The notes under the pieces were generated by a model. It ran no database searches and was not told where the DNA came from. It saw nothing but the letters and a program-made list of their open reading frames with translations. Of a DNA stretch of 49,171 bases, positions 1 to 42,493 are shown piece by piece. The stretch lies in contig CADAKF010000002.1 of assembly GCA_902788415.1 (NCBI GenBank), positions 1 to 49,171 on the forward strand, read 5' to 3'. This stretch comes from an uncultured bacterium (GTDB taxonomy: Bacteria > Verrucomicrobiota > Kiritimatiellia > RFP12 > UBA1067). A program made the position numbers and the translations under genes. Position 1 is the first letter of the stretch; every line of letters starts with the position of its first letter.

Positions 1-488
1 CGGCGTCAGGTGAAAGCGGTCGAGGTCGACCACGCAGAGATCAGCCTTCTTACCGACGGCGATCTCGCCCGTGTCGTCCATCCCGAGCGCCTTCGCGCCG
101 TTCTTCGTCGCCATGTCGATCACATCCCACGCCGAGAGCACCGTCGGATCCTTTGCGAGCCCCTTGTGAATGAGCGAGCAAATGTGCATCTCCTCGAACA
201 TATCAAGGTTGTCGTTCGACGCGCAGCCATCCGTCCCGAGCGCCACATTGACGCCAAGCTCCATCGCCCGCGCAATCCGCGCAAAGCCACTCCCGAGCTT
301 CATGTTGCTCGTCGGATTGTGGATGAGTGACACACCCTTTTCAGCCATGATTCGGAAGTCGTCATCCGTGCACCACACGCAATGCGCTGCATAGCCGCCG
401 TGATCGAGGATGCCTGTCTCGGCGAGGTATGCGATCGGCGTCTTGCCGTGTCGCGCGAGGCATTCGTTGTGCTCCCTCTCCGTCTCCG

Positions 489-570
489 AGACATGGAAAT
501 GAAGCGGACGCTTCAGCTCCTTATTCGCTAGACATGGAAATGAAGCGGACGCTTCAGCTCCTTATTCGCT
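489..570. repeat. Perfect 41-bp tandem duplication inside mtaD
   Basis: Positions 489-529 and 530-570 are identical and adjacent. Because 41 is not a multiple of three, the second copy shifts the reading frame of the minus-strand deaminase and brings a TAG into frame at 528-530. Confidence 0.97.
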
Positions 571-635
571 TCGGCCAATCCGCGACAGAACGCCTCGTCG
601 GTCAGATACTCGGAATGGATGCAGAGATCGGCAAG

Positions 636-667
636 GACATTAGACCTTAGACGAGAGACATTAAACG
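636..667. repeat. Family A repeat inserted in frame in mtaD
   Basis: The stretch has units ending in TAGAC / GAGAC on the plus strand. It resembles elements at 20286-20318, 29389-29417 and 38704-38734. It encodes the SFNVSRLRSNVL stretch of the deaminase, which I do not expect in the family at this place. Confidence 0.55.
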
Positions 668-993
668 ACTTGGTAAATTCAATGCACTCCTCAAGCCGCC
701 CTGGGATGAAATTGAGCCCCACGCGACAAACTCGACCCTTCATTCCGGCCGCGCAAAGCGCCTTCTCCATCTCCCACGGGAAATCGTACATGTCGGCAAC
801 GCAGGTCGTACCGCCTGCGAGCATTTCCATAAGGCCCCAGACATCCCCTGCATACACATCCTCCGGCGTCATTTTTGCTTCGACTGGAAAGATCGCCTCC
901 TCAAGCCACCGCTGAAGCGGCAACCCGCTCCCCAGCCCCCTCACCAGCGTCATCGCGGTATGTCCGTGGCAATTGATGAGCCCGGGCATTACG

Positions 994-1040
994 AGACGGG
1001 GCGAAGCCCCGTCTTGAGGTGAAGGTGAAAGGCGAAGGTC
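994..1040. repeat. Palindrome plus GAAGGTGAAAGG-type repeat inserted in frame in mtaD
   Basis: A perfect inverted repeat GACGGGGC-GAA-GCCCCGTC lies at 995-1013, followed by short GAAGGT/GAAAGG/CGAAGG units. It encodes about 12 extra residues (LSPSPQDGASPR) just before the conserved VMPGLIN motif. Confidence 0.6.
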
Positions 1041-1113
1041 AACAATGGAATCGCCCTCAATCACCAAGTCACCGTACCCGACCTTATGCCCGGGCAGGAC
1101 CATCCAGCAGTTC

Positions 1114-1758
1114 TCAAGTTTCTGGCTCATTTTGTTCAATTATATCAAAGACAGCCTCGTCAATGAGTTCAGGAACCCGGATTGGCAGCACATGCTCGTT
1201 TCCCGGAACCATCGTCACTTTCGCCTGCGGAAAGACCTCTTTCAAAAACTCCGCGTTGCTGGGCCTTACAATCCCGTCCTTCTCGCTCTGAAAGATAAAG
1301 ACAGGGAAATTCCGCCGTTTCACTGATTCACCTGACTCACTGATTGACAAAAGCTGCAAACGCAAGTCGGTGGTCTTTAAGTAATCCAATCCCCGCTCCA
1401 TGTTTCTCTCGTCGTACATCGGCGACGGATCGTCCCCGAACATCATCTGCGTCCCCAACCTCAGCGCCGCCAATCGCCTCTCGCTCATCCCCTTCCAATT
1501 CTCGGCCTCCATCATCCGCGGCGTGGTCGAAACAAGCACCAGTCCCTTCACCTTCTCCGGCCACTTGAGCCACATCCGGAGCGCCGTCGAGCCGCCCATC
1601 GAAAACCCGACGAGCACGACCTCGTCCGATTCCTCCATCACCTTCTCGGGGAGTCCGTCCAATTGCTCGACGTAGTCGAAGACCCAGTCGTGCGGAAACG
1701 CGCAAAGCGCCCACGTCTCCGGCCCCGCCGCCCAGCCATTAAAGACCAGGATTCTCAC
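1114..1758 (-). CDS. Alpha/beta hydrolase, BioH/BioG-like
   Basis: A 214-residue alpha/beta-hydrolase-fold protein. It starts with VRILVFNGWAAGPETW, has the nucleophile elbow GFSMGG, a probable catalytic Asp in SEKDGIV and the His in GNEHVLP, so the triad is complete. Its size and N terminus recall the BioH/BioG carboxylesterases of pimeloyl-ACP formation, but no biotin gene is nearby, so the substrate is uncertain. I chose GTG at 1758, whose GTGA overlaps the stop of the GH2 gene; longer in-frame starts only add low-complexity Arg/Gly sequence antisense to nothing known. About 12 residues (SISESGESVKRR) between the core and the Asp loop are encoded by a family D repeat. The 3' end overlaps the promoter and start of mtaD. 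Confidence 0.75.
   Translation of the reverse strand: MRILVFNGWAAGPETWALCAFPHDWVFDYVEQLDGLPEKVMEESDEVVLVGFSMGGSTALRMWLKWPEKVKGLVLVSTTPRMMEAENWKGMSERRLAALRLGTQMMFGDDPSPMYDERNMERGLDYLKTTDLRLQLLSISESGESVKRRNFPVFIFQSEKDGIVRPSNAEFLKEVFPQAKVTMVPGNEHVLPIRVPELIDEAVFDIIEQNEPET
1139..1144 (-). promoter_or_regulatory. Extended -10 box for mtaD, nearly leaderless
   Basis: The minus strand reads TGATATAAT (TGN plus TATAAT), with 8 nt between the box and the ATG at 1130. The predicted transcript start therefore falls at or within one or two bases of the start codon. No good -35 seen. Confidence 0.6.
1310..1351. repeat. Family D repeat inserted in frame in the alpha/beta hydrolase
   Basis: On the minus strand the element runs TTTGTCAATCA, then GTGA/ATCA units, then GTGAAACGGCGGAA. 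The same head and tail enclose the intergenic copy at 48434-48478, so this is a dispersed repeat with conserved ends rather than chance low complexity. Confidence 0.75.
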
Positions 1759-4382: not shown

Positions 4383-5100
4383 TTTCGATCTCCTCCAGAA
4401 TCCGCTTCGCGACCATTCGCTTTGTCATCAGCGGAAAATTCCTCTGCGTTCCGTCCGGGAAGACGAACGTCACCTTGTTCGTATCCGTCCCGAATCCGCA
4501 CCCCTTCCGCGTCACGTCATTCGCGACGATGAACGAGAGTCCCTTCTCGCGGCACTTCCGCGCCGCCTCAGCAAGAACATGATCGGTCTCCGCGGCAAAG
4601 CCGACGAGACGAAGAAGACATCGACCATCCACTGTCCACCTCGACCTCCGGCCTCCGACCTGACGCGCAATCGTCTTCAAAATATCGGGGTTTCTGACGA
4701 GCTTCAGCACCCCGCTCATCTCGCCCTTCTTAAGCTTCTTAGCCGCGCACTTCGCCGGCCGCCAGTCGGCGACCGCCGCCGTGGAAATAAAAATGGTTAA
4801 ATTCCGCCGATGGTCGGATGCTCCGATGCTCCGATGCTCCGATGACAAATCACCGCAACACGAAGTAAGAAGCGATTTCTTCACCGCCTTCATCATCTCC
4901 CGCGCCGACGTGACATCGACTCTCTTGACGCCCTTCGGCGTCTTGAGCGCAACCGGCCCCGCCACCAAGACGACCTCATGTCCCCTCTTCGCCGCCTCCG
5001 CGGCAATTGCAAAGCCCATCTTGCCGGTCGAGGGATTCGACAGGAACCTCACCGGATCCAGATATTCCCTCGTCGGCCCTGCTGTAACGATAATCTGCAT
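4372..5100 (-). CDS. coaB: Phosphopantothenate-cysteine ligase domain protein (stand-alone CoaB)
   Basis: A 242-residue protein equal to the CoaB half of CoaBC: nucleotide and substrate motif TAGPTREYLDPVRFLSNPS at the N terminus, then TAAVADWRP, LVRNPDILKTIA and LVGFAAETD, and a C-terminal VANDV...GFGTDTNKV. It joins 4'-phosphopantothenate to cysteine in coenzyme A synthesis. The flavin-dependent CoaC decarboxylase half is absent here and must be encoded elsewhere. Two loops are longer than usual and match repeat DNA: roughly 25 residues around SLLTSCCGD...NLTIF (4793-4880), and about 12 residues around GGRRSRWTVDGR (4618-4664). The insertions flank the active core and the fold motifs remain. 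It lies between yggU (9-nt gap) and the GH2 gene (11-nt overlap). Confidence 0.85.
   Translation of the reverse strand: MQIIVTAGPTREYLDPVRFLSNPSTGKMGFAIAAEAAKRGHEVVLVAGPVALKTPKGVKRVDVTSAREMMKAVKKSLLTSCCGDLSSEHRSIGASDHRRNLTIFISTAAVADWRPAKCAAKKLKKGEMSGVLKLVRNPDILKTIARQVGGRRSRWTVDGRCLLRLVGFAAETDHVLAEAARKCREKGLSFIVANDVTRKGCGFGTDTNKVTFVFPDGTQRNFPLMTKRMVAKRILEEIENED
4618..4664. repeat. Low-complexity GTCGGAGG-type insertion in coaB
   Basis: On the minus strand this is a run of GGTCGGAGGCCGGAGGTCGAGG-like units encoding GGRRSRW. In CoaB the loop between the NPDIL motif and LVGFAAET is normally short. Confidence 0.5.
4793..4868. repeat. CCGATGCT tandem array inserted in frame in coaB
   Basis: The plus strand has four near-identical 9-nt units of CTCCGATG type (4814-4846). 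On the minus strand the array is followed by ATCGGCGGAATTT, the tail also seen after repeats at 1310, 42836 and 48434. It encodes part of the extra loop before TAAVADWRP. Confidence 0.65.
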
Positions 5101-9346: not shown

Positions 9347-10076
9347 AGACCCGGTCGATTGCCGGCGAGTCGGTAAGCTTGTGCAGGAACTTCCGCCGAT
9401 AGGCGAGATGGTTGCGGTCGCGGCACAGGCGACGCGATGTCGCGAAGTGGAGTCCGGAAACCATCCAGCCGACCTGGATGAGCACGAAGTCCGAAAGCGA
9501 CTTGATGTTCTGGTAGTCGACCGGCTCGCCCTTCTCGATGTTTGCGACCACCACCGGATTCGGCGGTGCGGAGACCGCAAGATTCCAGAACGCCCGCGAG
9601 TCGCTCTTCCAGTCCGTGTGCGCGACCTGGTCCTCAAGGACACGGAAGATGTCCAACTTGTCCGCGTCCCGCACCGTATGCGCGGCGATCTCGGTCAGAG
9701 AATCCATGCCGTCCGGCAAATCGCGGCGATTGTGGTACAAAACGGCCTTGAGAACCGCCGGAGTCCGACACCATCCCTTCTCAACAACGATGTCATGGCT
9801 GAACACCGCATGGTCGACGGAATCGGAATCCTTGAAGGTGTTGTAGCGCTTGAGCTGCTCGTAGCGTCCCGTGTCGTGGAGAAGCGCCGCAGCGAGCGCA
9901 ACCTCGCGCTCCTCGGACGAGAAGCCCTCGCCATCCGCGATCAACTCCGCGTTCTTGACGACGAACGCCGTATGCGTCCGCTTGAGTTGCATCATCGCCG
10001 GCAGCCTGCCGTCCGCCTCGCGATACGTGTCGACGTAGGCATCGTAGAGTTCCGTCAATTTGCCGAGAACACTCAT
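9318..10076 (-). CDS. HD-domain protein (probable metal-dependent phosphohydrolase)
   Basis: A 252-residue HD-fold protein with His in KRTHTAF, the HD pair in LLHDTGRYEQ, further His residues in VFSHDIV and LYHNRRD, and the Asp in RDADKLDIFRV: the H...HD...D pattern that binds one or two metals. Such proteins hydrolyse nucleotides or other phosphate esters; the substrate is not evident. It is the last gene of the nfeD operon. Start ATG 10076 directly abuts a heptad array and has no ribosome site. Its TAA stop lies inside the -10 box of the next operon, an extreme packing of gene end and promoter. Confidence 0.75.
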   Translation of the reverse strand: MSVLGKLTELYDAYVDTYREADGRLPAMMQLKRTHTAFVVKNAELIADGEGFSSEEREVALAAALLHDTGRYEQLKRYNTFKDSDSVDHAVFSHDIVVEKGWCRTPAVLKAVLYHNRRDLPDGMDSLTEIAAHTVRDADKLDIFRVLEDQVAHTDWKSDSRAFWNLAVSAPPNPVVVANIEKGEPVDYQNIKSLSDFVLIQVGWMVSGLHFATSRRLCRDRNHLAYRRKFLHKLTDSPAIDRVCDIAERVLV

Positions 10077-10150
10077 AGCGATTAGCGGTTGGCGGTTAGC
10101 GATTAGCAGTTAGCAGTTAGCTAACAGCCAAAAGCTAATCGCTAACAACT
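10077..10150. repeat. Long heptad array with inverted halves between purE and the HD gene
   Basis: Some ten 7-nt units (GTTAGCG, ATTAGCA, GTTAGCA and variants). The last third is the reverse complement of the first (GTTAGCGATTAGC versus GCTAATCGCTAAC), so the RNA can fold. The TAG stop of purE lies in the upstream end and the HD start codon follows the other end directly. Confidence 0.92.
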
Positions 10151-15279: not shown

Positions 15280-16304
15280 ATTGCAAGTTCTCCTTGTTTT
15301 GAAATCGGTTCCAGTCCCAGCGTCTTCCACGCGAGCGGCGTCGCGACGCGCCCCTTGGGCGTGCGGTCGAGGTAACCCTCCATGATGAGGAACGGCTCGT
15401 ACGCCTCCTCGATCGTGTCCGGCTCCTCGCCGACGGAGACCGCGATCGTCGCGAGTCCGACGGGCCCGCCGCCGAACTTCTGGCAGATCGTCTCGAGGAT
15501 CCTGCGGTCCATCTCGTCGAGCCCGTGCGGGTCGATCTCCAGGAGCTCCAGTGATTCCTTCGCGACCTCGCCGGTGATGAAATTCCCCGCCTTGACCTGC
15601 GCGTAGTCGCGCACGCGCTTCAGGAGGTTGTTGGCGATGCGCGGCGTGCCGCGCGCACGGCGGGCGATCTCCAGCGCCCCCGCCTCGTCGATGTCCACCC
15701 CAAGCTTCGCCGCGCTGCGCGTCACGATCTCGGCGAGCTGCGGCGGCTCATAGTAGGAGAGCCGGTTCACGAGCCCGAACCGCTCGCGCAAGGGCGCCGC
15801 GATGAGCCCGATCCGGGTCGTCGCACCGACCAGCGTGAAGCGCGGCAGGTCGAGGCGCACGGAGCGCGCGTTCGGACCCTGGTCGAGGACGATGTCGATC
15901 GCATAGTCCTCCATCGCGCTGTAGAGGTATTCCTCGACGGTCTTCGCAAGCCGGTGGATCTCGTCGATGAAAACGATGTCGCCGGACTCGAGCGAGGTGA
16001 GCAGCCCCGCGAGGTCGCCGGGCTTGGTGATGACGGGGCCGGACGTGGTCTTCACGTTCACGCCCATCGCCTCGCCGAGGATGTAGGAGAGTGTGGTCTT
16101 GCCGAGGCCGGGCGGCCCCGAGAAGAGCACGTGGTCCAGCGATTCGCCGCGGTCCTTCGCCGCCTTCACGGCGAGCATCAGCCGGTCGCGGACCTTCTCC
16201 TGCCCGACGAACCCCTCGAAGTCCGTCGGCCGAAGCCGATTGTCAAACGCGTTGTTGCGCCTGTTCAGCTCTTCGCTCGGACGAACATCCCCCAAACCGC
16301 TCAA
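15276..16304 (-). CDS. ruvB: Holliday junction branch migration helicase RuvB
   Basis: A 342-residue AAA+ ATPase: [18 protein letters not shown], Walker [14 protein letters not shown], Walker [11 protein letters not shown], sensor [32 protein letters not shown] and the winged-helix end [16 protein letters not shown]...YLDRTPKGR. With RuvA it moves Holliday junctions. No in-frame ATG precedes the conserved region; the start is probably TTG at 16304, which lies inside a GGTTAAG repeat, so residues MSGLG are repeat-derived. ruvA and ruvC are not adjacent. Overlaps pgi by 4 nt. Confidence 0.94.
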
Positions 16305-16333
16305 CCCCTTAACCGCTTAACCTCTTAACCTAT
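16295..16333. repeat. GGTTAAGCG array between the beta-lactamase-like gene and ruvB
   Basis: On the minus strand, units of GGTTAAGAGG/GGTTAAGCGG/GGTTAAGGGG/GGTTGAGCGG start at the TAG stop of the upstream gene and contain the probable TTG start of ruvB. The same unit is inserted inside rmlB at 19793-19833. Confidence 0.8.
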
Positions 16334-19575: not shown

Positions 19576-20661
19576 TTAGGCCTTGCCGAGGCGCTGTCCT
19601 GCGTAGCGGTTGCGATGAATGGGGCCCCACCACCACTCGTTGTCGAGATACCACTTCACCGTCTTGCGGATGCCAGTGTCAAACGTCTCCTCGGGCTTCC
19701 AGCCAAGCTCGTTCATGAGCTTCGACGGGTCAATCGCGTAACGGAGGTCGTGCCCGGGACGGTCGGTCACGTAGGTGATCAGCTCTTCGAAGCGGTTAAG
19801 CGGTTGTGCGGTTAAGCGATTAAGCGGTTTTTTTACGATGAGCTCGTCCAGGATTGAGCAGACGGTCTTCACGACCTCGAGGTTCGTGCGCTCGTTGTGT
19901 CCGCCGACGTTGTACGTCTCGCCGTCCTTGCCCTTCTCGTTCACGAGGCAAAGGGCCTTCACATGATCCTCAACGTAGAGCCAGTCGCGCACGTTCGCCC
20001 CCTTGCCGTAGACCGGAAGTGGTTTGCCGTCCAAGCAGTTAAGGATAATCAGCGGAATCAGCTTCTCGGGGAAGTGGTAGGGGCCGTAGTTGTTGGAGCA
20101 GTTGGTGATTCGAATCGGCAGCCCGTACGTATCGTGCCAAGCGCGGACCATGTGGTCGGACGACGCCTTCGAGGCCGAATACGGGGAATGCGGCGAATAT
20201 GAGGTCTTCTCGTTGAAGAACCCAGTCTCGCCGAGCGTCCCGTACACCTCGTCCGTCGAGATGTGCTGAAAACAAAACCTCTTGCGTCTTTCGTCTCCCG
20301 TCTCAAGTCCTTTCCAGTACTTGAGCGCCGCCTGCAGCAAGGTCGCCGTGCCGACGACATTCGTGCGGACGAATTCACCGGGGCCGTCGATCGAGCGATC
20401 CACGTGCGACTCGGCCGCAAGATGGAAAATCGTGTCCGGCTTGAACTCCTCGAACGCCCGGTCCATCGCCTCCTGGTCGCAAATGTCCTTCACCAAGAGT
20501 TCGTAGCGGCCCTCGACCTCCTTGAGGGATTCCGGAACGCCGGCATAGGTGAGCTTGTCAATGACGAGGACCGCCGCACCCTCGTTCCGAACAAGATGAC
20601 GAACAAGGGCCGAGCCGATGAACCCACAGCCCCCCGTAACGATACACCGCTTATTCTTCAT
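19576..20661 (-). CDS. rmlB: dTDP-glucose 4,6-dehydratase
   Basis: A 361-residue short-chain dehydrogenase: [38 protein letters not shown], catalytic [32 protein letters not shown] and [13 protein letters not shown]. It makes dTDP-4-keto-6-deoxyglucose for rhamnose and related sugars. Start ATG 20661 has GGAG upstream and overlaps the kinase stop by 11 nt; an upstream extension to 20889 is antisense-like Arg-rich sequence and rejected. Two in-frame insertions come from repeats: about 12 residues ([10 protein letters not shown]) before [10 protein letters not shown], and about 17 residues ([15 protein letters not shown]) before [14 protein letters not shown]. rmlA, C and D are not present. Last gene of the polysaccharide operon. 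Confidence 0.93.
19793..19833. repeat. GCGGTTAA array inserted in frame in rmlB
   Basis: Five GCGGTTAA / GCGATTAA-type units ending in a run of T. They encode [12 protein letters not shown] between the ILDEL helix and the [14 protein letters not shown] motif. Same unit as the intergenic array at 16295-16333. Confidence 0.8.
20274..20318. repeat. Family A repeat inserted in frame in rmlB (sense orientation)
   Basis: On the minus strand it reads GGAAAGGACTTGAGACGGGA and continues with GACGAAAGACGC. It shares AAAGGACTTGAGACG with the copy in the ispH-uppS gene, which lies in the opposite orientation relative to its gene. It encodes [11 protein letters not shown]. Confidence 0.75.
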
Positions 20662-35942: not shown

Positions 35943-36006
35943 TTGGCTTTTAGCTGTTGGCTGTTAGCTTTTAGCCGTTAGCAGTCATCAAATGCTAATC
36001 GCTAAT
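35943..36006. repeat. Heptad array between IMP cyclohydrolase and acyl-CoA synthetase genes
   Basis: About eight units of TTAGCTG/TTGGCTG/TTAGCCG type. One end is inverted (GCTAATCGCTAATC), as in the array at 10077-10150. The stop of the upstream gene (TAG in GATTAGCGATTAGC) is inside, and the downstream ATG abuts it. Confidence 0.9.
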
Positions 36007-38701: not shown

Positions 38702-38768
38702 CTTATTAGGACTTTAGACGGGAGACGGAAGACACGATTTCAAACCTCAAACTTCAAACCTCAAACTC
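38702..38768. repeat. Composite family A + family B repeat between macA and the ATPase gene
   Basis: GGACTTTAGACGGGAGACGG followed by AAGACACG, then four units of the TTTCAAACCTCAAAC type, fill the complete 65-nt gap. The TGA stop of macA is at the first unit and the ATPase ATG abuts the other end. Confidence 0.85.
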
Positions 38769-39981
38769 ACTTCTTCGGCTCCGGCGCGGTCCCCTTGTTC
38801 TTTCCGCGCTGCGGCATCTTCTGCTTGAACGGATTCGTCGTGTCGTCCTTCTTCGCCGCCAGCGTCGCCGGGGTCTCGTAGCCGATCACGACCTCCTTAC
38901 CCTCCAGCTCGTCATGCTCGAGAATCTGCATGAGCGTCGTGTCCGACACGCCCTCCTTGACCACAATCGGCCTCACCTTCCCGTTCTCGCCGACGACCCA
39001 GATTTTGCGCCCGCGCGGCACGTCGCCCTCCTCGCGGTCCTCGTCCTTCGGACGGAACCGAAGCGCCGCGGCCGGCACAGCAACCGCGCTTTCGGCGCGC
39101 GCCGTCTCAATCGACAGCGTCGCCGTCATGTCCGGGAAGAGCATCTCGTCCGGATTCTCCGCCTCGATGATGATCGGATAGGTGACGACGTTGTTCGTCG
39201 TCGTCGCGGCCTTGCGGACCTGCTTCACCTTGCCCTTGAAGCGCTTGCGGTAGGCGTCGGCCGTGAACGTCACCTCCTGCCCGATCTTGATGTTCCCGAC
39301 GTCCGCCTCCGGCACCGTCGCCTCCACCCAGATGACGTTCAGGTCCTCCGCGATCGTGAGAACCGGGACGGCGTTGTAGGACGAGACGACCGTCTCGCCT
39401 TCCTCGACCTTGCGCGCGATCACAACGCCGTTCACCGGCGAGCGGATCGTGCAGTAGTCGAGATCGGCCTTCGCCTTGCTCACGGACGCCTCACTCTGCT
39501 CCACCGCCGCCTTCGTGGTGTCGCGCGTCTCGATCGCCGCGTCAAGATCGGCCTCGCTGCACATCTGCTTGGCGAAGAGGTTGCGCTTGCGGACCAGCGT
39601 CTTCTCCGCGAGGACGAGCTTCGCCTGGTTGGAATGAAGCTGCGCGACCGCGCTCTTGTACGTCGCCTCGTAGACGAGCGGATCGATGAGCGCCACGACC
39701 TGCCCGTTCGTCACAGTCGAGTTATAGTCGACGAACAGCTTGATGACCTTGCCGTTCACCTGCGCGCCGACGGGGATGCCGTTCGAGGTGTTGCGCGGCG
39801 TCACGCGCCCCGTCGCCTCCACCGTCCGCACCACATCCGCCCGCGTAATCGTCGCAAACCGGAACTTCGGCCCGTTCGCCTTCGCCATCGGACCCTTCGA
39901 GCACCCGATCAGGCACAAGGCGACGGCAAACGCCATCCAGATTCGATTATTCGACAATTCGATTATTCGATTATTTCTCAT
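38767..39981 (-). CDS. macA: MacA-like periplasmic adaptor lipoprotein
   Basis: A 404-residue membrane-fusion protein: lipoprotein signal AFAVALCLIGCSKG, lipoyl half GIPVGAQVNGKVIKLFVDYNSTV, alpha-hairpin about 100-170, second lipoyl half IRSPVNGVVIARKVEEGETV, then beta-barrel and membrane-proximal domain. It links MacB to TolC. ATG 39981 has GAGGAG upstream and overlaps the tolC end by 11 nt. Its first 15 residues (MRNNRIIELSNNRIW) are encoded by an AATAATCG array; the ATG at 39936 directly before AFAVAL would be a conventional signal start. So the n-region of the signal peptide seems to have been extended by a repeat. Confidence 0.92.
   Translation of the reverse strand: MRNNRIIELSNNRIWMAFAVALCLIGCSKGPMAKANGPKFRFATITRADVVRTVEATGRVTPRNTSNGIPVGAQVNGKVIKLFVDYNSTVTNGQVVALIDPLVYEATYKSAVAQLHSNQAKLVLAEKTLVRKRNLFAKQMCSEADLDAAIETRDTTKAAVEQSEASVSKAKADLDYCTIRSPVNGVVIARKVEEGETVVSSYNAVPVLTIAEDLNVIWVEATVPEADVGNIKIGQEVTFTADAYRKRFKGKVKQVRKAATTTNNVVTYPIIIEAENPDEMLFPDMTATLSIETARAESAVAVPAAALRFRPKDEDREEGDVPRGRKIWVVGENGKVRPIVVKEGVSDTTLMQILEHDELEGKEVVIGYETPATLAAKKDDTTNPFKQKMPQRGKNKGTAPEPKK
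39941..39980. repeat. AATAATCG array at the 5' end of macA
   Basis: Four to five 8-nt units (CGAATAAT / CGAATTGT) lie directly after the macA ATG. They encode the extra N-terminal residues and lie before a second possible start codon. Confidence 0.8.
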
Positions 39982-41423: not shown

Positions 41424-42493
41424 GAGGAGCGAGGAAGCAAAAGCGTAAAGACGCAACCCTTCGGCTCATTCGCCCGAACGGTCAGGTCGCCGCCCATCTG
41501 ACGCGCAAACTCGCGCGCCGTGCAAAGCCCGATGCCGAAGCCGCCCTTGCCGCTCTCAAGCACCGTTCGCGCCCGATAATAGCGGTCGAACGCCTTCTTC
41601 ATCTGCCGCGGCGTCATGCCCTGCCCCTCGTCGGCGAACTCGACCTTGACGAACGCGCCCTCGCGCACAAACCTCACCGACACCTTCCCGTACGGCGCCG
41701 CGTACTTGAGGTCGTTGCCGAAGAGGTTCCAGAGGATCTGCAGCGTCATCGCCTCGTCGGCCATGGCGAAAGTTTGAAGGTTTGAAGGTTTGAAGGTTTG
41801 AAAGTCGACCGCTCCGCCTTCGCTGTCCCCGTAGTCGGCGGCGAAGAGCTGATAGGCCTCTTTCGTCAGGGCCACGATGTCAATCGGCTTCAGTTCCGGT
41901 TTCTTCCGCTTGCCGCCGAGCTTCAGGAAATCCTTGATGTTATTGACGATGAGGAGCATCCGCTCGTTGAGCTTCTTCGCCTCGTCGTCGCATTTCCCGA
42001 TCATCATCCTCATCCCCACGAGCGGCGTCGTCAGATCATGCGCCGTCGCCGCGAGGAAGTCGTCGCGCGACTTCACGAACTTCCAGAAATAGCGAACACC
42101 AAAAACAGTCATCGCCACGAACAGCAGCGCAATCAAGGCCCCCGCAGGGTAGAATATCGTCCTGAAGTCGAGCCCTTGCACTGGTTCGACGACGAGCCGA
42201 TAGGCCTTATCGCCCTTGAAATACCAGACCAGCCCGCGTTCATACCCCCATGGTTCCTTCGTGATTTTGAGTTCCCCGCGTTTCAAGCCAGATGCGGCAA
42301 AATCAAACACTTCGCCTCTGCCCGCCTCTTTTGCCTCGACAGTCAGGGCCCGATACTCCTGCTGAACTCGTCGCTGTTCGTTGCGCTCGAACTGCGGCAC
42401 CTTGTCAATCAGAAAATAGACAACCGCCCCAACCAGCATGAGCGCTGGCAGCGAGATGAGAACGCTGTTCCAAATGAGCCAGCGGTCTTTCAT
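41420..42493 (-). CDS. Membrane sensor histidine kinase
   Basis: A 357-residue kinase: TM1 about 8-29 and TM2 about 112-135 with a periplasmic domain of 80 residues between them. The dimerisation box is DDFLAATAHDLTTPLVGMRM with phospho-acceptor H152, the N-box LWNLFGNDLKYA, and G boxes FADEGQGM and GKGGFGIGLCTAREFARQMGG. No HAMP domain and no response regulator gene adjacent, so the partner is unknown. Regulation of the adjoining efflux operon is plausible from position only. About 15 residues (DFQTFKPSNLQTFAM) in front of the N-box are from a GAAGGTTT array. ATGA overlap with the ELM1-like gene. Confidence 0.92.
   Translation of the reverse strand: MKDRWLIWNSVLISLPALMLVGAVVYFLIDKVPQFERNEQRRVQQEYRALTVEAKEAGRGEVFDFAASGLKRGELKITKEPWGYERGLVWYFKGDKAYRLVVEPVQGLDFRTIFYPAGALIALLFVAMTVFGVRYFWKFVKSRDDFLAATAHDLTTPLVGMRMMIGKCDDEAKKLNERMLLIVNNIKDFLKLGGKRKKPELKPIDIVALTKEAYQLFAADYGDSEGGAVDFQTFKPSNLQTFAMADEAMTLQILWNLFGNDLKYAAPYGKVSVRFVREGAFVKVEFADEGQGMTPRQMKKAFDRYYRARTVLESGKGGFGIGLCTAREFARQMGGDLTVRANEPKGCVFTLLLPRSS
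41768..41806. repeat. Family B (GAAGGTTT) array inserted in frame in the kinase gene
   Basis: Four AGGTTTGA units, the same as in the macA-ATPase gap (38735-38768). They encode FQTFKPSNLQTF between strand and N-box of the ATPase domain. Confidence 0.85.

Follow-up and report, generated by a model that had tools for sequence, protein, structure and literature searches.

Some frameshift pseudogenes of bacteria are the result of short tandem duplications, and the locus described here shares with them a repeat that is perfect, tens of base pairs long, not a multiple of three and confined to one genome, differing in nothing beyond its position and the absence of microhomology at its ends. Another class of comparable systems is the VNTR contingency loci, in which the copy number of a tandem repeat likewise sets the reading frame; the present array has only two copies, relatives do not carry the repeat, and there is no evidence of both states. 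Copy-number variation of tandem repeats has been treated as phase variation in a study on M. tuberculosis promoters (PMC12817950). With regard to the encoded enzyme, the closest described systems are the MtaD/TM0936-type MTA/SAH deaminases (PDB 4f0r and 1p1m), whose family is characterized by one continuous reading frame and by an N-terminal HxH, a second HxH plus glutamate, a histidine and an aspartate, residues which we take to have metal- or substrate-binding roles.

The window, that is, the whole stretch of 49,171 nucleotides analysed, is contig C2 read from base 1 (CADAKF010000002.1, uncultured Kiritimatiellia bacterium, UBA1067). The draft genome to which it belongs comprises 147 contigs with a total of 1.90 Mb, and is 83% complete. 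Metagenome-assembled genomes with the labels Kiritimatiellae, Verrucomicrobia or Lentisphaerae are the closest named relatives, several of which come from ruminant guts, and the host appears to be a rumen-type Kiritimatiellae bacterium. The nearest genome compared represents another species, and is about 70% identical to the upstream half of the deaminase gene.

The interrupted MtaD-like gene and its neighbours

The minus-strand frame that begins at 1139 ends after 203 codons at the TAG of 530-528, and is followed by 177 codons that are open in another frame up to the window start (Table 1). As 41 is not a multiple of three, the second copy of the 41-bp unit ends translation after 203 residues, and the frameshift and TAG that an earlier note on this DNA had ascribed to an extra copy are found in both the minus-strand frames and the codon listing. 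The ligand motifs, which that note had described as kept on both sides, are indeed all present: HGHTAM precedes the lesion, HFHV occurs in both copies, and SET, AAHC and GTDG follow it, which gives the complete family set (HGHTAM, HFHVSE, AAHC and GTDG) distributed over two halves.

Table 1. Coordinates of the features at the deaminase locus, on the adjoining contig and elsewhere in the window
Feature	Position	Strand	Basis or remark
MtaD-like amidohydrolase gene, upstream part, 203 codons; start TTG 1139 or ATG 1130	531..1139	-	PF01979 E 5e-11
Same amidohydrolase gene, downstream part, other frame; leaves the contig start and resumes on C35	1..531	-	PF01979 E 1.5e-41
TAG stop across the junction of the 41-bp copies	528..530	-	codon listing
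41-bp unit, copy 1 in + order; the gene's downstream copy	489..529		identical to 530..570
41-bp unit, copy 2 in + order; the gene's upstream copy	530..570		identical to 489..529
Alpha/beta hydrolase gene, start codon tentative	1114..1755	-	directly upstream of the deaminase gene
Exact 99-bp contig overlap, C2 start and C35 start	window 1..99 = L114 1-99		sequence identity
MTA/SAH-nucleosidase-like gene, 195 aa	L114 312-899 (contig C35)		PF01048 82.3 bits
Arrays of 7- or 8-base units	4807-4844, 10076-10121, 16295-16330, 19790-19829, 35943-35982, 38739-38767, 39941-39975, 41768-41802		tandem repeat finder

Both halves exceed the cut-off (25 bits) of the PF01979 profile, with scores of 42.8 bits upstream and 143.3 bits downstream, and each matches the PDB sequences 4f0r and 1p1m, in order. 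Residues 45-202 of the upstream half align with residues 42-200 of TM0936, by which the second HFHV histidine falls near TM0936 position 200, presumably a zinc ligand. In NCBIfam, the best models for each half are those of ethylammeline chlorohydrolase, 5'-deoxyadenosine deaminase and MTA/SAH deaminase, all below cut-off, as expected of pieces. The locus thus resembles the MtaD/TM0936-type deaminases in its matches and motifs and differs from them in its broken frame. Moreover, even an intact relative (L003) reaches no equivalog cut-off, scoring 227.9 bits with the MTA/SAH deaminase equivalog NF012037 (cut-off 779 bits, which is not reached at the present locus either) and 356.6 bits with its best model, NF004701 (cut-off 609 bits); the designation MtaD-like therefore stands at family level and does not extend to the substrate. 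The enzyme had earlier been called an MtaD-like purine salvage enzyme, of which the first part agrees with the PF01979 matches and motifs, while purine salvage is a guess at the level of the family. A search of the literature on the deaminase returned nothing useful.

The first 99 bases of the window recur exactly at the start of contig C35, which carries the deaminase C-terminus, and judging from this overlap, C2 and C35 are very probably neighbours between which the gene is divided. On C35, the TGA of the gene shares one base with the ATG of the next, a putative MTA/SAH nucleosidase gene, which matched MTA/SAH nucleosidase models in NCBIfam, all below cut-off. A relative of this gene was seen on 12 of 29 short same-genus loci; as these include only about 1.5 kb of flank, its absence from the others says little. 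An anaerobic ribonucleotide-reductase-like ORF was recognised by eye beyond it on C35. The alpha/beta hydrolase gene shares a few bases with the start of the deaminase gene. As to related metabolism, a purine-nucleoside phosphorylase gene lies on contig C14, and neither a second deaminase gene nor an AdoHcyase as a bypass was found in the 83% complete host genome.

Properties of the 41-bp duplication

The tandem duplication claimed in the earlier note is real as sequence: the two copies agree letter for letter and form an array of 82 bp, exactly 2.0 copies, with 0 bases of identity beyond either end. Within the window, the unit with up to three mismatches occurs at two sites, both in the array (two matches were obtained in 0 of 100 dinucleotide shuffles), and the array is the sole exact tandem duplication with a period of at least 15. 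The tandem repeat finder also reported several short arrays built of units of 7 or 8 bases, such as AACCGCTT, AAGCGGTT, GAAGGTTT, ATTCGATT and TAGCGGT, which recur through the window.

Inspection of the array ends revealed no short direct repeat flanking the duplicated unit, as would be looked for in microhomology-mediated duplication, and slippage between pre-existing short repeats was rejected, since identity stops at the ends of the two copies. The single-copy state thus holds nothing that favours renewed duplication. Within the unit there is a stem of 6 bp (TGAAGC-GGAC-GCTTCA). A single unit together with its flank, however, does not fold better than shuffled sequence (z of -0.87 and -0.35), for which reason a hairpin-driven duplication was also rejected; the doubled unit reaches a z of -3.45, as any duplicated hairpin unit would likewise fold well. 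In a consensus scan the hairpin is terminator-like on the plus strand, antisense to the deaminase gene, and was given no weight. The pattern of the duplication junction had 0 matches in viral_contigs, as expected of a chromosomal gene.

Single-copy relatives and the age of the lesion

A comparison of the upstream half with 57 same-genus genomes, many of which are incomplete, gave strong matches in 39, each of them within an open frame of at least 358 aa; a further genome (G014) yielded a scrap at a contig edge, and the other 17 yielded no match. For four of the 39, the matched stretch includes a listed stop, which is read as preceding the start codon because the matches begin at query residues 2-5 and the locus frames reach 409-421 aa. 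In all loci fetched from 29 of the 39 genomes, the frame is unbroken at the site and the unit is present once, as indicated by both halves matching one frame with overlapping positions on the subject. All 23 of the 23 named genome_contigs loci compared (L032-L054) gave this result as well; many of them are the same contigs as the 29, and they are the best 23 of 80 loci, the more distant L055-L111 being left out of the copy test.

Apart from the lesion, the available gene sequence shows neither a further stop or frame change nor signs of relaxed constraint. At the 136 near-invariant columns (identical in at least 28 of the 29 relatives), the window gene has one mismatch. Against five relatives, the unsaturated Ka/Ks ratios of its upstream half range from 0.11 to 0.20 and those of its downstream half from 0.06 to 0.15 (L011, with Ks saturated for both halves, is excluded), while three pairs of intact relatives gave unsaturated values of 0.168 and 0.085-0.103, respectively. 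With no sign of decay, the lesion should be recent, or absent from most cells, in accordance with the earlier suggestion of a recent event or an artefact, which the well-kept frames, motifs and conserved columns support.

Origin and meaning of the second copy

The array at 489-570 is probably a one-off, recent, frameshifting tandem duplication in the sampled strain. Its main competitor, which is considered possible but clearly the less probable, is that the second copy is a library or assembly artefact, or a minor variant caught in the consensus, most cells having one copy and a working enzyme. This would fit an otherwise fully constrained gene that is the only copy in the genome, the single copy at 29 of 29 relatives' loci, the zero microhomology at the duplication ends, and the nearby contig break, 489 bp away and marked by the 99-bp overlap. 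The exactness of this overlap hints at a de Bruijn assembler whose k was close to 99, a guess from the one such overlap among the contig ends compared; a program of this kind would not be expected to create a junction that its input lacked, and its k-mers, at a length of about 99, could reach across the 82-bp array. Furthermore, the commoner assembly error is collapse rather than expansion, at least as argued for M. tuberculosis repeats in PMC12817950, where errors are held to collapse copies more often than to add them. Exact tandem duplications with a period of at least 15 number three in 421 kb of the host genome (the 41-bp array and two others of 16 bp and 29 bp, the latter next to the tmRNA gene) against eight in 311 kb of 20 relatives, and the assembly thus makes no excess of them. 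End extension is 0 bases in two of the three host duplications versus one of 12 in relatives (the eight in 311 kb plus four in mtaD loci), numbers too few to read. The 29-bp duplication (2.0 copies, L123 1533-1590, contig C9 of G000) lies outside the listed ORFs, adjoins the tmRNA gene and, by eye, sits among GGCTCGCCAAGCC-like inverted repeats.

The earlier note had also raised on/off phase variation of the enzyme. Gain and loss of the 41-bp unit would indeed switch the gene, two copies being off and one copy being the relatives' state, and misalignment can remove one copy of a perfect tandem repeat. However, with an evolved switch one would expect relatives to retain a repeat or microhomology, whereas a second copy, let alone a variable one, is present in 0 of 29 same-genus loci, the ends offer no microhomology to regenerate the duplication, and the gene affected, which lies in an operon, encodes a metabolic enzyme of purine/SAH type rather than a surface or restriction function. 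An evolved switch is thus not supported and is considered very improbable; equally improbable is its consequence, a frequent, reversible 41-bp change by which SAH/MTA deamination would be off, and the next nucleosidase lowered by coupling, in a fraction of cells. The related suggestion of reversibility by slippage would be true of every perfect tandem repeat and carries no specific weight here, and no literature on duplication plus reversion was found. Most improbable of all is that the two halves, both open and conserved, still function as two peptides or as one product joined by programmed frameshifting: relatives lack a split-frame arrangement, a frameshifted product would hold the HFHV strand twice, and frameshifting was rejected because no XXXYYYZ slippery heptamer was found on the minus strand from about 480 to 575.

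Under the favoured reading of a one-off duplication, a replication or repair error most likely copied 41 bp inside the MtaD-like amidohydrolase coding sequence, the duplicated segment probably coding for the strand with a metal-binding histidine. The predicted product of 203 residues would keep the N-terminal HxH and lack the glutamate, histidine and aspartate motifs of the active site, and should therefore be inactive, as far as can be inferred from the motifs; translation of the coupled downstream nucleosidase gene may also be lowered. Perfect tandem repeats can collapse to one copy by misalignment, and the lesion may thus be unstable.

Real as sequence, the duplication appears ordinary as biology, as nothing points to a selected switch. 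The locus serves as a warning on two counts: an annotation pipeline would report two truncated proteins at this place, and a single draft genome cannot tell whether a gene is really lost or merely broken in a minor variant. Should both states recur in reads, a housekeeping-type enzyme would have a switch, which would be unusual; if the duplication is a private mutation, it matters little.
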